A stretch of DNA of 41,365 nucleotides from Terriglobia bacterium (GTDB lineage Bacteria; Acidobacteriota; Terriglobia; Terriglobales; Acidobacteriaceae), in the NCBI GenBank assembly GCA_020073015.1, contig JAIQFZ010000040.1, positions 1-41,365 of the forward strand. The letters run 5' to 3'. Of the stretch, positions 3,104 through 18,364 are shown piece after piece (positions within the stretch are counted from its first letter, which is position 1; each line of letters begins with the position of its first letter). A program made the translations under genes and the position numbers. The notes under the pieces are model-generated. The model did not search any database and was not told where the DNA came from. It saw nothing but the letters and a program-made list of their open reading frames with translations.

Positions 3104-3185
3104 GTCTCAGGTTTCGATGCTCACTACAGAATGCAACAAAGAAGGGCCGCAGGGAAGCTTCCGAGAGTAACGCCCTAAGCCATGT

Positions 3186-3330
3186 CACCGCCGAGACGCA
3201 GAGAGCGCCGAGAAGATCTTTCTGTGGTTGTCGAATTGCCCGGACGGAGCTGTGTCATCCATGAAGTTCCGCCCGTCCGGGTTCTGACATTCCAAATGGT
3301 TTTCTCGGCGCTCTCTGCGTCTCGACGGTG
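3186..3330. repeat. Long intergenic inverted repeat (about 145 bp hairpin element)
   Basis: Arms 3186-3214 and 3302-3330 are reverse complements over 29 nt with one mismatch (core GAGACGCAGAGAGCGCCGAG). A nested inner stem is formed by CCCGGACGG and CCGTCCGGG. The element fills almost the whole gap between mltG and the AI-2E permease gene. Related words recur at 22828-22897 and more loosely at 5021-5117. No coding potential was seen. Confidence 0.85.
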
Positions 3331-3338
3331 CAATGGTT

Positions 3339-4382
3339 CTATTCCCCTAGCCAGTCCGCATATGGCTTCATCGACTCAACGTGATCAAACACAATCTTGA
3401 TCGCTCCGGTGATGGGGATGGCCAGCACCAGCCCGATCGCGCCCCAGATCCATCCCCAGAACAGGAGCGCAATCGTGACGGCCAGCGGGTTTAGGCGCAA
3501 ACGGCTTCCGAGCAGCTTCGGATAGAGAACGTTCAGAGCCAGAAGATGCAGCCCGACGACCACAAAGACCACCAGCACCAGGTCACCCGCTTCCAACTGT
3601 CCTAGCCCGACCAGGATCGGAGGCACCATGGCCAGTACCAGCCCAAGGTAGGGCACGACGCTCAGGAAGCCGCTCAGGAATCCCACGAAATAGAAGAACG
3701 GAACGTGCAGCATCCCGAAAATCGCCACGCTCACGGCCGAAATCAGCAGGCCGATCAGCAGATTCCCGACAATGAAGCTCTGCAGCATTTTGCCAATCAG
3801 CCCAAGCGTCACGAATGCCGTGTGCCGATGCTGTAAAGGGAACAGCATGACGGTGGCCGAGCGCGCATGGTGCCGCCACGTCAGCAGAAAATACGCCAGA
3901 AACGGAATGAACGATGCCGCCAGCAGGATGTCGGTTACCGTCCCGACTCCGTGGGTCAGCACGTCGGTCCAGCTCGAGACCGGACGGACCGTGACCACGT
4001 TGGCGGGCGGTGGTTCGCCCACGGCTTCCCCGGTCTTCTGGAATTTTTCGGCTTGCTGCCGGAAGGGCTGCAGAATCGAGCGGATCTTCTGGGAATACTT
4101 CGGTACCGTGTCGATGAAGATGACGGCCTGGTTGTAGGAGGCCGCGGCAATGCCGTAGAGCAGCGCCACCAGCAGAACCACGGCAATCAGGGCCGCCAGC
4201 CCCCGTGGAATATGAAAATATTCCAGCGCCCCGACCACCGGAGACAGCACAAAACTCAGCAGGACCGAAAAGAACAGCACCGCCAGCACCGACTCGCCGT
4301 AGTAGGCAAACACCACGATCAATCCGATGCCAAGCAGGGTCAGCGACCAGTGAGGCTTGCGGAGTGTCTCGGCGGTTTCCAT
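3339..4382 (-). CDS. AI-2E family transporter (PerM/YdiK-like permease)
   Basis: Polytopic inner-membrane protein of 347 aa, the usual family length. It has about eight hydrophobic segments: an N-terminal pair near residues 13-45, one near 60-80, then a soluble stretch (about 85-145), and a C-terminal block of closely packed segments. The C-terminal half carries family-typical GFLSGFLSVVPYLG and PKLLGSRLRLNPLAV. Named for the E. coli TqsA autoinducer exporter, the family also includes Na+/H+ antiporters and general permeases, so the substrate is not assignable. It is flanked on both sides by long inverted repeats and has no obvious operon partner. Confidence 0.88.
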   Translation of the reverse strand: METAETLRKPHWSLTLLGIGLIVVFAYYGESVLAVLFFSVLLSFVLSPVVGALEYFHIPRGLAALIAVVLLVALLYGIAAASYNQAVIFIDTVPKYSQKIRSILQPFRQQAEKFQKTGEAVGEPPPANVVTVRPVSSWTDVLTHGVGTVTDILLAASFIPFLAYFLLTWRHHARSATVMLFPLQHRHTAFVTLGLIGKMLQSFIVGNLLIGLLISAVSVAIFGMLHVPFFYFVGFLSGFLSVVPYLGLVLAMVPPILVGLGQLEAGDLVLVVFVVVGLHLLALNVLYPKLLGSRLRLNPLAVTIALLFWGWIWGAIGLVLAIPITGAIKIVFDHVESMKPYADWLGE

Positions 4383-4435
4383 CTTCGGACCGGCCCATCA
4401 TTCTGCCTGAGACAGAGCTGATTTGCACGGGGATT

Positions 4436-4540
4436 GAGGAGGGCAGAGGTTCGAGGTCAGATTGCAGAGGTTAAAACCTCAACCCATACACTGTTGATTG
4501 ATGGCTTGGGTTTACCTCTGCAATCTGACCTCTGCCCTCT
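4436..4540. repeat. Intergenic inverted repeat with reiterated CAGAGGT/GTCAGATT words
   Basis: Perfect 19-nt arms (GAGGTCAGATTGCAGAGGT at 4453-4471; its complement at 4514-4532) sit inside longer imperfect arms that begin GAGGGCAGAGG. The loop is about 42 nt. It lies between divergent perM-like and ruvX genes. The same core, GTCAGATTGCAGA, recurs at 10634-10737. Confidence 0.85.
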
Positions 4541-9828: not shown

Positions 9829-9933
9829 CTCAGTTTCCGGCTGTCAGCTTTCGGCAACGCCTGCGTAGGGACAGCCGCGTTCGGCTGTCCGGCGGAGCGA
9901 AGCTCGCTCACAGATTAACTGACGGCTGATGGC
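9829..9933. repeat. Intergenic repeat with a perfect 9-bp hairpin, overlapping the deacetylase stop
   Basis: The outer arms are imperfect (left words CTCAGTTT and GGCTGTCAGC; right words AACTGACGGCTGA). Inside is a perfect hairpin, GGACAGCCG-CGTT-CGGCTGTCC at 9869-9890. The right arm runs into the last codons of the deacetylase, whose terminal residues Pro-Ser-Ala-Val-Ser and stop come from repeat sequence. Confidence 0.6.
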
Positions 9934-16605: not shown

Positions 16606-17064
16606 TCACGCGCTCTTCAGGTAGGCCAGCACTTCCTCCGCGTGGCCTTCGGCTTTCACGTTGCTGAAGATGTGCTTGATCTTGCCGTCGGGGCCAATCA
16701 CGAACGTGGTGCGGGCGATGCCTTTAAAGATTTTGCCATACATGTTTTTGTCTTTGATCACGCCGAAAGCATTGCAGATTTTCTTGTCGGTATCGGCCAG
16801 CAAGGTGTAGGGCAGGTCGTACTTGTCCTGAAACTTCTTCTGTTTCTCCGAGGCGTCGGCGGAGATGCCGAGCACGACGGCGCCGGTTTTCTGCATCTGC
16901 TTGTATGCGTCGCGGAACCCGCACGCTTCTTTGGTTCAACCGGGTGTGTCGGCCTTGGGATAGAAAAACAAGACCACCATTTTGCCGCGGAAGTCCTTCA
17001 GCGAAACTTCTTTTCCATTCTCATCCACCGTTGTGAAGTCGGGGGCTTTATCATTGACTTGCAT
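16606..17064 (-). CDS. bcp: BCP-type peroxiredoxin, probable selenoprotein (UGA = Sec43)
   Basis: Peroxide-reducing thiol peroxidase of the BCP/PrxQ class. 152 aa including one in-frame TGA at 16936-16938, codon 43. Upstream it reads MQVNDKAPDFTTVDENGKEV and FFYPKADTPG; after the TGA comes TKEACGFRDAYKQM. BCPs have TPGCTKEAC, so the TGA takes the place of the peroxidatic Cys, and Cys48 is the resolving Cys. The rest is intact to the stop (GISADASEKQKKF, PYTLLADTD, ARTTFVIGPDGKI). A SECIS-like hairpin follows the TGA. ATG 17064 has GAGGAGAAGAGA upstream. A nonsense mutation or sequencing error is the alternative, but the exact position and hairpin argue against it. No selenocysteine machinery is in the window. 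Confidence 0.88.
16907..16926 (-). promoter_or_regulatory. Bacterial SECIS-like hairpin in the peroxiredoxin mRNA
   Basis: Nine nt after the UGA the mRNA reads GCGUGCGG-GUU-CCGC-G-ACGC. This folds into an 8-bp stem with one bulged G on the 3' side and a GUU loop whose first base is G. The loop starts 18 nt after the UGA, inside the distance range used for bacterial SECIS elements. It overlaps codons for Ala-Cys-Gly-Phe-Arg-Asp. Confidence 0.75.
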
Positions 17065-18364
17065 GGGATTCTCTTCTCCTCGCCGTTCATCGTTATATCG
17101 CAACGTCATGGTCGCCGTCACGCTGCTCGGTTGCACGTGGGGCGCATGGACATGGATTTTCGCGCAGGGCACCATCGCGCAGTACGGACGCCGGGCGCCT
17201 GCTTCGAAAGGGCCACGCGCGCTCGGACTGGTGATGCTTTCGCCGAAGGGGAAAGCGCGTCTCACGCCCATCGCGATCATGGTTGACGGAAAGTTTTACG
17301 ACGCGGGCTCCTATAAGGGGAAGCCCGTTCCCATGGCGCTGGATTTCGGCGTCGTGTACGAAGGCTTTCGCACCGGTGTGTCGCAAGGCATCTTCACGAT
17401 CACACAGCCCGGACAGCTCAACCACAACTGGATCGCGGAAGGCACATGGCTTCCCGCCGGAGCCAAACCGCCGGAGACGAGCAAGAAGTATGAGACTCCG
17501 GTGATCGAAGACACGGATGCCCCGCCAAAACTCCATCGCGGAAGCGACAAGCCGGCGGCAGGCACAAGCGACAAGCAAACGCCCGTGCCTGCTTCCACTC
17601 CGCCGCCGAGCACGCCGGCTACTCCTCCTGCTCCTCCCGCCGCAAAAACGCCTCCCGAGCCGCAGTCGATCGACGATCCGAATCGGCCGCTCTTGCGGCG
17701 CGGGAAGCCGGATCCGAATGCGCGACGGGAAGCCACGAAGACCTTCGACGAGGATGAATTCGCGACCAAGAGCAAAGCGGCGACGACCACGGCGGAGGCT
17801 GCGATCCAGATCATTCCGGCGATCTCGGATGCGGGCGGTCCGGATCCTAGAACCTACACCTATGAGGTGAAACCGCAAGAAGAGGCTTCGTATCGCGCGA
17901 AGATGCTGGAGCTGGCTGCGGCCGAACTGCGTGCGAAGACGAAGACCGAAGGACCCGCGAACGCGGCGGCAAAGCGCAGATCTCCAGTGGTCGCCCAGCC
18001 ACCCAAGCCAGCGTTGGACGAGGTGCGGCTGCGCATTTTTGATCTTTCGAATTCGAACGAGCCGGTGCTGGTGCTTTCTGCCAGGACGCACGTGCCCGCC
18101 GGCGACGATATGCGCGAGCCGGAGGAGATCACGCTGGTTGCCCGGACCAATCTCGAAGGCGAGTTGCGCAGGCTGTTCTTCTCGGAAACGGACTCGCGGC
18201 ACCTCGACATCGAACCCAGGATGGAACTGATCGACGCGGTGGACGCGGACGGAGACGGGCGCGGCGAGCTGCTGTTTCGACGGACTTCGGATTCGGGTAG
18301 CGCGTACGGCATCTATCGGGTCACGGCCGATCAGCTTTGGCCGTTGTATGAAGGGACGCCGTAG
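17063..18364 (+). CDS. Exported Pro/Lys-rich protein of unknown function
   Basis: About 433 aa from ATG 17063. That start gives an Arg-rich n-region (MGFSSPRRSSLYRN), then a hydrophobic stretch with LLGC, so it may be lipidated; ATG 17108 is the alternative. A folded region (about 55-130: ALGLVMLSPKGKARLTPIAI, MVDGKFYDAGSYKG, NHNWIAEGTW) precedes a long Pro/Ala/Thr linker (about 150-270). The C-terminus holds a calcium-loop-like DADGDGRGELLF in a VCBS/FG-GAP-like segment (residues about 395-425). No family was recognised. The first ATG overlaps the peroxiredoxin ATG on the other strand, so the two divergent promoters must lie inside coding sequence. Confidence 0.65.
   Translation: MGFSSPRRSSLYRNVMVAVTLLGCTWGAWTWIFAQGTIAQYGRRAPASKGPRALGLVMLSPKGKARLTPIAIMVDGKFYDAGSYKGKPVPMALDFGVVYEGFRTGVSQGIFTITQPGQLNHNWIAEGTWLPAGAKPPETSKKYETPVIEDTDAPPKLHRGSDKPAAGTSDKQTPVPASTPPPSTPATPPAPPAAKTPPEPQSIDDPNRPLLRRGKPDPNARREATKTFDEDEFATKSKAATTTAEAAIQIIPAISDAGGPDPRTYTYEVKPQEEASYRAKMLELAAAELRAKTKTEGPANAAAKRRSPVVAQPPKPALDEVRLRIFDLSNSNEPVLVLSARTHVPAGDDMREPEEITLVARTNLEGELRRLFFSETDSRHLDIEPRMELIDAVDADGDGRGELLFRRTSDSGSAYGIYRVTADQLWPLYEGTP

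Follow-up and report, generated by a model that had tools for sequence, protein, structure and literature searches.

A gene on the reverse strand of the analysed DNA (a 41,365-nt contig of a Terriglobia bacterium, the whole of which is referred to as the window) very likely encodes a peroxiredoxin of the BCP/PrxQ type with selenocysteine (Sec) as its peroxidatic residue, inserted at codon 43 by means of SelB and a hairpin. This reading, made from nucleotide sequence, draws on the codon itself, the surrounding motif, the predicted fold, the Sec-decoding genes of the genome, the selection acting on the part that follows the UGA, and a hairpin that is conserved along with synonymous codons specific to Sec forms. 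The positions of the identified features are given in Table 1.

Table 1. Features of the peroxiredoxin gene and copies of the REP-like palindrome (window positions unless a contig is named).
Feature	Position	Strand	Basis
Sec-containing BCP/PrxQ-type peroxiredoxin gene (probable)	16606..17064	-	read-through frame, family matches, predicted fold
In-frame UGA, codon 43, peroxidatic position, probably read as selenocysteine	16936..16938	-	row alignment
Terminating TGA of the same gene	16606..16608	-	translation
AGGAG, likely Shine-Dalgarno sequence, 12-16 nt upstream of ATG	17076..17080	-	upstream sequence
Codon 48, likely resolving cysteine	16921..16923	-	translation (position); role putative
SECIS-like hairpin GCGU-GCGG-GUU-CCGC-G-ACGC, 9 nt after UGA	16907..16926	-	fold
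Hairpin loop GUU, 17 nt after UGA	16916-16918	-	fold
Codon 49, Gly = GGG, part of hairpin loop and stem	16918..16920	-	codon comparison
REP-like palindrome copies	window 9869-9890; C189:73074-73095; C136:1-22		

The gene is a single frame of 152 codons plus a stop codon, which reads, in reverse complement, M...FFYPKADTPG-UGA-TKEACGF...LKSA-stop; the TGA at codon 43 is its sole interruption. The read-through protein matches the Pfam family AhpC-TSA (148 bits, cut-off 26) and, over residues 2–151, the NCBIfam BCP model NF006960 (172.7 bits, cut-off 140), which places it in the BCP family. Translation and family scores thus bear out the preliminary description, which had reported one in-frame TGA in an otherwise intact BCP-type peroxiredoxin, with its coordinates and motif. 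That description had also likened the protein to PrxU, an enzyme of Eubacterium acidaminophilum that is said to be a peroxiredoxin with a peroxidatic Sec. The likeness holds for Sec at the peroxidatic position, but it is otherwise loose: the score with the NCBIfam model peroxi_PrxU (NF040737) is 56.8 bits against a cut-off of 270, and this model spans 233 positions, compared to 152 residues here. The score with the PrxQ model NF053650 is likewise below the cut-off (166.2 bits vs 260). The protein belongs to the BCP/PrxQ branch and, by cut-off, not to the PrxU subfamily.

An AlphaFold2 model built from a 32-row alignment had a mean pLDDT of 96.3, and its ten best structural matches, with TM-scores of 0.90–0.97, were BCP/PrxQ chains (Cys was modelled instead of Sec in both the prediction and the structure comparison). 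Fold and catalytic motif are like those of BCP/PrxQ thiol peroxidases such as the enzyme of Burkholderia ambifaria (5enu) and PrxQ of Xanthomonas campestris (5iiz/3gkm), whereas the solved chains, which show 37–42% identity, contain Cys where the window gene has UGA. In the predicted model residue 43 lies near the start of a helix (residues 41–59), beside Pro36, Thr40 and Arg118. The PxxxTxxU motif and the catalytic Arg are both present, and none of Pro36, Thr40, residue 43 and Arg118 varies among the 32 rows. Mechanically defined ORFs do follow the TGA in the same or another frame (16606–16896 and 16724–16939), which would fit translation as a 42-residue peptide plus a second protein that restarts downstream. 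Such a division would cut one high-confidence predicted fold in two and part the invariant Pro36 and Thr40 from Arg118, and its probability is considered negligible.

Relatives of the gene were gathered by (i) a search of 297 genomes of the phylum, which gave a protein match at E ≤ 1e-30 in 187, and (ii) a scan of named genomes, which gave 70 loci. The 36 phylum loci used are a selection out of the 187 matching genomes, namely the best 29 and 7 more, 5 of which were picked for a TGA or for their genome. Together with the window gene this made 107 rows; L155 and L156 yielded no row at the alignment threshold, which left 68 of the named loci and a total of 105 scored rows (the window gene and 104 relatives). 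Aligning homologs for Cys or Sec at codon 43, as the preliminary description had recommended, revealed TGA in 25 of the 105 rows and TGC or TGT in 78; in the remaining two the alignment is off by one codon, and both read TPGC. In each of the 25 TGA rows the stretch used is interrupted by a single in-frame TGA and by no further internal stop, and 24 of these rows are distinct (L104 is on the same contig as L039). Relatives of the peroxiredoxin were also looked for on viral contigs, where none were found.

The TGA is present in the closest relatives, which come from other assemblies: L087 (Terriglobia bacterium SRVP_12; 96% identity), L088 (88%), L089 (84%) and L090 (83%). Metagenome bins of Terriglobia or Acidobacteriaceae, named for instance palsa or groundwater, make up the closest named relatives. 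The one named acidobacterial row without a MAG label, KBS 83 (L120), is a Cys form. The same TGA recurs in relatives down to 44–47% identity. A chance origin of the TGA at the peroxidatic codon is excluded. An error of sequencing or assembly that turned TGC or TGT into TGA would need to alter a single base; since L087–L090 share the TGA, a base-calling error is very unlikely, and because the four also share GGG49 and the hairpin, the probability of an error of either kind is put at close to nil.

A nonsense mutation that ended a former Cys-type BCP gene, now decaying, would account for a TGA one base away from the TGC/TGT of most relatives, in a genome that also uses TGA as a stop. Persistence of the TGA down to 44–47% identity and the lack of any other internal stop in all 25 TGA rows argue against such a pseudogene, as does the rate of substitution. 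Between the window gene and nine Sec homologs, dN/dS was 0.07–0.20 for codons 44–152 and, for the same nine pairs, 0.05–0.34 for codons 1–42 (one value undefined, dS saturated); these values are rough, several dS values exceeding 1. By these estimates the sequence after the TGA is under purifying selection. Sec-specific synonymous codons clustered directly after the UGA (see below) are a further argument against decay. The conservation found speaks strongly against a pseudogene, which is regarded as highly improbable.

The Sec/Cys comparisons of codons, hairpins and energies that follow are based on non-redundant acidobacterial rows, 23 Sec and 49 Cys forms, with rows from L125 on left out. 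Of the association tests reported here, the independent-pairs tests alone correct for kinship. From these comparisons and from the tree, L104, L045 (as far as shown, its protein is identical to that of L044), L123 and L151 (slipped alignment) and L152–L154 (distant) were dropped, the last five through codon or identity limits in the synonymous-codon test and by name elsewhere; the tree retained L125, L127 and L139. The last of these (4001–4453), from a bin of Sporomusaceae, outside the phylum, is a Sec form whose position 48 is Arg; SelB is present in that bin.

The bacterial SECIS consensus has been described as a loop of 3–9 nt with G in its first two places, a spacing of 16–37 nt, an upper stem of 4–16 bp and an energy of ≤ −7.5 kcal/mol (PMC13188914). 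Downstream of the UGA, the window gene has a predicted hairpin composed of a 4-bp stem, a one-base bulge, a second 4-bp stem and a GUU loop, with a predicted energy of −10.0 kcal/mol for the hairpin alone (20 nt). In loop, spacing (17 nt), upper stem (4 bp) and energy it agrees with every point of the published model as excerpted from that source. The 54 nt following the codon folded no better than shuffled sequences (z −1.02; 28 of 200 as good), and Rfam gave no match in the window at gathering thresholds.

Comparison of the two forms revealed that a predicted loop GUU, GUA or GUUC at 17 nt is found in 23/23 Sec forms vs 3/49 Cys forms. The region of codons 46–54 reaches ≤ −7.5 kcal/mol in 21/23 Sec and 16/49 Cys forms (Mann-Whitney p = 1.7e-8). 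Under the analysis's own version of the published rule, as excerpted (PMC13188914), rule-abiding hairpins of ≤ −7.5 kcal/mol occur in 19/23 Sec vs 3/49 Cys forms, and those of any energy in 21/23 (14.5 expected) and 39/49 (26.6 expected), respectively. L094 and L095 do not satisfy the strict stem rule, and the hairpins of L059 and L060 are weak. The synonymous-recoding test gave 0.06 for the window hairpin, with medians of 0.06 for Sec and 0.41 for Cys forms.

The synonymous-codon test, applied to codons 30–74 with plain p values that ignore kinship, pointed to the same region. Gly49 is encoded by GGG in all 21 Sec forms with Gly at this position, compared to 1 of 35 Cys forms (p = 1.6e-14), while at the remaining Gly positions of these Sec genes the share of GGG is 20%. 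Codons 42, 47 and 53 also differ between Sec and Cys forms (p = 9.2e-7, 1.1e-5 and 3.2e-6, respectively), the lowest p in codons 54–74 being 0.006 and that of upstream codon 32 being 8.2e-4. When GGG49 was compared over independent pairs on starred branches of the tree, on average 3.7 agreed, 0.0 opposed and 1.2 showed no difference (median p 0.125; the pairs are few).

The genome contains the genes required for decoding UGA as Sec. The tRNA-Sec gene (C159:3025–3117) scores 71 bits (Rfam cut-off 47), with anticodon UCA according to ARAGORN, and SelB (C189:52826–54700) scores 374 bits (cut-off 242.25). SelD, on contig C228, scores 270 bits, or 360 including a second piece (cut-off 125). SelA is in two pieces, of 417 bits (C136) and 120 bits (C189), against a cut-off of 267.9. 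All four genes for which a search had been advised (selA, selB, selC and selD) are thus present, selA being divided at a contig break, and the lack of selB or selC, which the preliminary description had named as evidence against a selenoprotein, did not occur.

At the break in selA, the C189 piece leads into a short palindromic repeat, and a nearly identical repeat opens the C136 piece. In the genomes of four of seven relatives (L087, L089, L090 and L091) SelA is one open frame with an insert at the break site; in the other three it is a match without a gap (L094), two frames (L115) or a C-terminal piece at a contig edge (L088). Considering the shared repeat and SelA of the relatives, the split of selA is taken to be an assembly effect of the repeat. 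The REP-like palindrome (GTAG followed by GGACAGCCGnnnnCGGCTGTCC) occurs, with up to 2 mismatches, at 68 places in the genome, compared to 1 for the reversed control; one copy is located within selA, and in L159 it is in the opposite orientation. GTAG-tagged REPs, REPs within genes and acidobacterial RAYT transposases have been described (PMC3733652).

Other in-frame UGA codons were observed in the same genome. The SelD gene (L035, C228, 3505–4599, reverse strand) has an in-frame UGA within KAAGUASKL and, after it, a hairpin whose loop is GGU; this SelD is probably itself a selenoprotein, a known situation. Two thioredoxin-fold genes have one in-frame UGA each, in likely active sites FTGGUTAQM (L036, C161, 3572–4132, forward strand) and GTWUPNCGK (L037, C69, 3151–3627, reverse strand). 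Both are below every NCBIfam cut-off listed and showed no clear SECIS on quick folding, and they are considered only candidate selenoproteins. Two formate-dehydrogenase-like matches in the genome have no internal stop and are below the family cut-off.

Reading of the TGA as another amino acid, through a reassigned code or a general suppressor, would equally produce the full-length protein. The gene itself and several relatives, however, terminate in TGA, and the tRNA genes scanned (eight loci, covering part of the genome) include tRNA-Trp (CCA) and tRNA-Cys (GCA). The presence of tRNA-Sec (UCA) with SelB, and a hairpin with a GU loop specific to TGA forms, likewise argue for Sec, and such an alternative reading is judged extremely improbable.

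The distribution of SelB was compared with that of the TGA form. SelB scored over the cut-off in 194 of the 297 phylum-sample genomes. At least 11 phylum-sample genomes have this TGA, and SelB was found in 11/11 among the matches listed. In the window's family, 31 genomes contain the gene; selB is present in 6/6 with TGA vs 2/25 without an internal stop (p = 3.8e-5, ignoring kinship). Among the 36 named acidobacterial genomes (L087–L122), 12/13 TGA and 16/23 Cys genomes are selB-positive, a difference that is not significant (p = 0.21). The exception is L115, a Sec form in a 2.6 Mb bin in which SelA was found and SelB was not. This locus (3145–3600) groups with Cys forms L111 and L113 (support 100/99), but 25 nt across its hairpin are identical to those of Sec form L097; this may reflect recombination, a mixed bin or a switch to Sec.

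In BCP enzymes, the peroxidatic residue attacks the peroxide, the Cys five residues further on, where present, performs the resolving step, and thioredoxin carries out the reduction. For the window gene we infer that Sec is inserted and that the protein acts as a peroxidase, with resolution and reduction as follows. SelB with Sec-tRNA(Sec) would bind the short hairpin right after the UGA, Sec would be inserted at codon 43, and the ribosome would continue to the real stop at codon 153. Since the protein contains both U43 and C48, its catalytic cycle likely passes from selenol to selenenic acid, on attack of Sec43 on the peroxide, and then to a selenenylsulfide, formed as Cys48 resolves the selenenic acid and reduced by thioredoxin.

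Among the acidobacterial rows, Cys48 is replaced by Ser or Arg in 9/23 Sec forms vs 0/49 Cys forms (p = 9.6e-6, a plain count that ignores kinship). On the tree, Sec/Cys changes occurred at least 6 times, as did changes of Cys48. Over 5 independent pairs (starred branches), loss of Cys48 agreed with Sec in 3.4 on average, opposed it in 0.0 and showed no difference in 1.6; the pairs are too few for significance. Outside the phylum some Cys forms, e.g. L126 and L128, also lack Cys48, so its loss only in Sec forms is not a general rule. Sec forms L059 and L060 (G121 and G073) contain UNxEAS instead of UTxEAC, and the protein has no Cys at all, which would rule out an internal resolving Cys there. 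It is tentatively proposed, with a little short of an even chance of being correct, that this family switches between Sec and Cys in Acidobacteriota and that only its Sec forms lose Cys48; selenium would free the enzyme from internal resolution, turning an enzyme of the two-thiol type into a one-Sec peroxidase, and the GU-loop hairpin would be fixed alongside.

A Sec-to-Cys reversion in the window's clade was considered and set aside: in the best tree a Cys clade of 11 rows sits within Sec rows on a starred branch, but a single clade of the 11 Sec rows concerned was not rejected by an AU test (p = 0.379). For peroxiredoxins, 5 Cys-to-Sec and no Sec-to-Cys events are tabulated in a published survey (PMC1794560, Table 1).

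Sec-containing peroxiredoxins with a TxxU motif are listed as COG1225 (Bcp) in one review (PMC9312934) and, with PxxxTxxU, as PF00578 in another (PMC13188914); 91 Sec peroxiredoxins have been counted in 78 organisms (PMC5029168). For Acidobacteria, 4 selenoproteins of 3 families were reported (PMC1794560), and the acidobacterium Occallatibacter riparius has 3 known selenoprotein genes (PMC12013277). The window gene resembles the TxxU peroxiredoxins of the two reviews in its peroxidatic Sec in TPGU, its Bcp type, its Cys homologs and the SECIS-like hairpin after the UGA, and in the excerpts of these sources nothing sets it apart as a kind. In the excerpted literature, neither the hairpin sequence nor the absence of a resolving Cys from related Sec forms was described. 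A title search of open-licence PMC found neither a paper dedicated to acidobacterial Sec peroxiredoxins nor one on the loss of their resolving Cys, a weak indication that none exists.

Sec-containing Bcp-type peroxiredoxins are already known as a kind, and it is well supported that the window gene would add a member to it. It is of interest for its series of closely related Sec and Cys forms, some of which have lost the resolving cysteine. Routine annotation would be expected to split the gene, which very probably encodes a selenoenzyme, and the same applies to at least 23 further distinct rows. The finding points to a selenium-based peroxide defence in Terriglobia-type acidobacteria, and the close mixture of Sec and Cys forms constitutes a natural series for asking what selenium gives the enzyme and what becomes dispensable.
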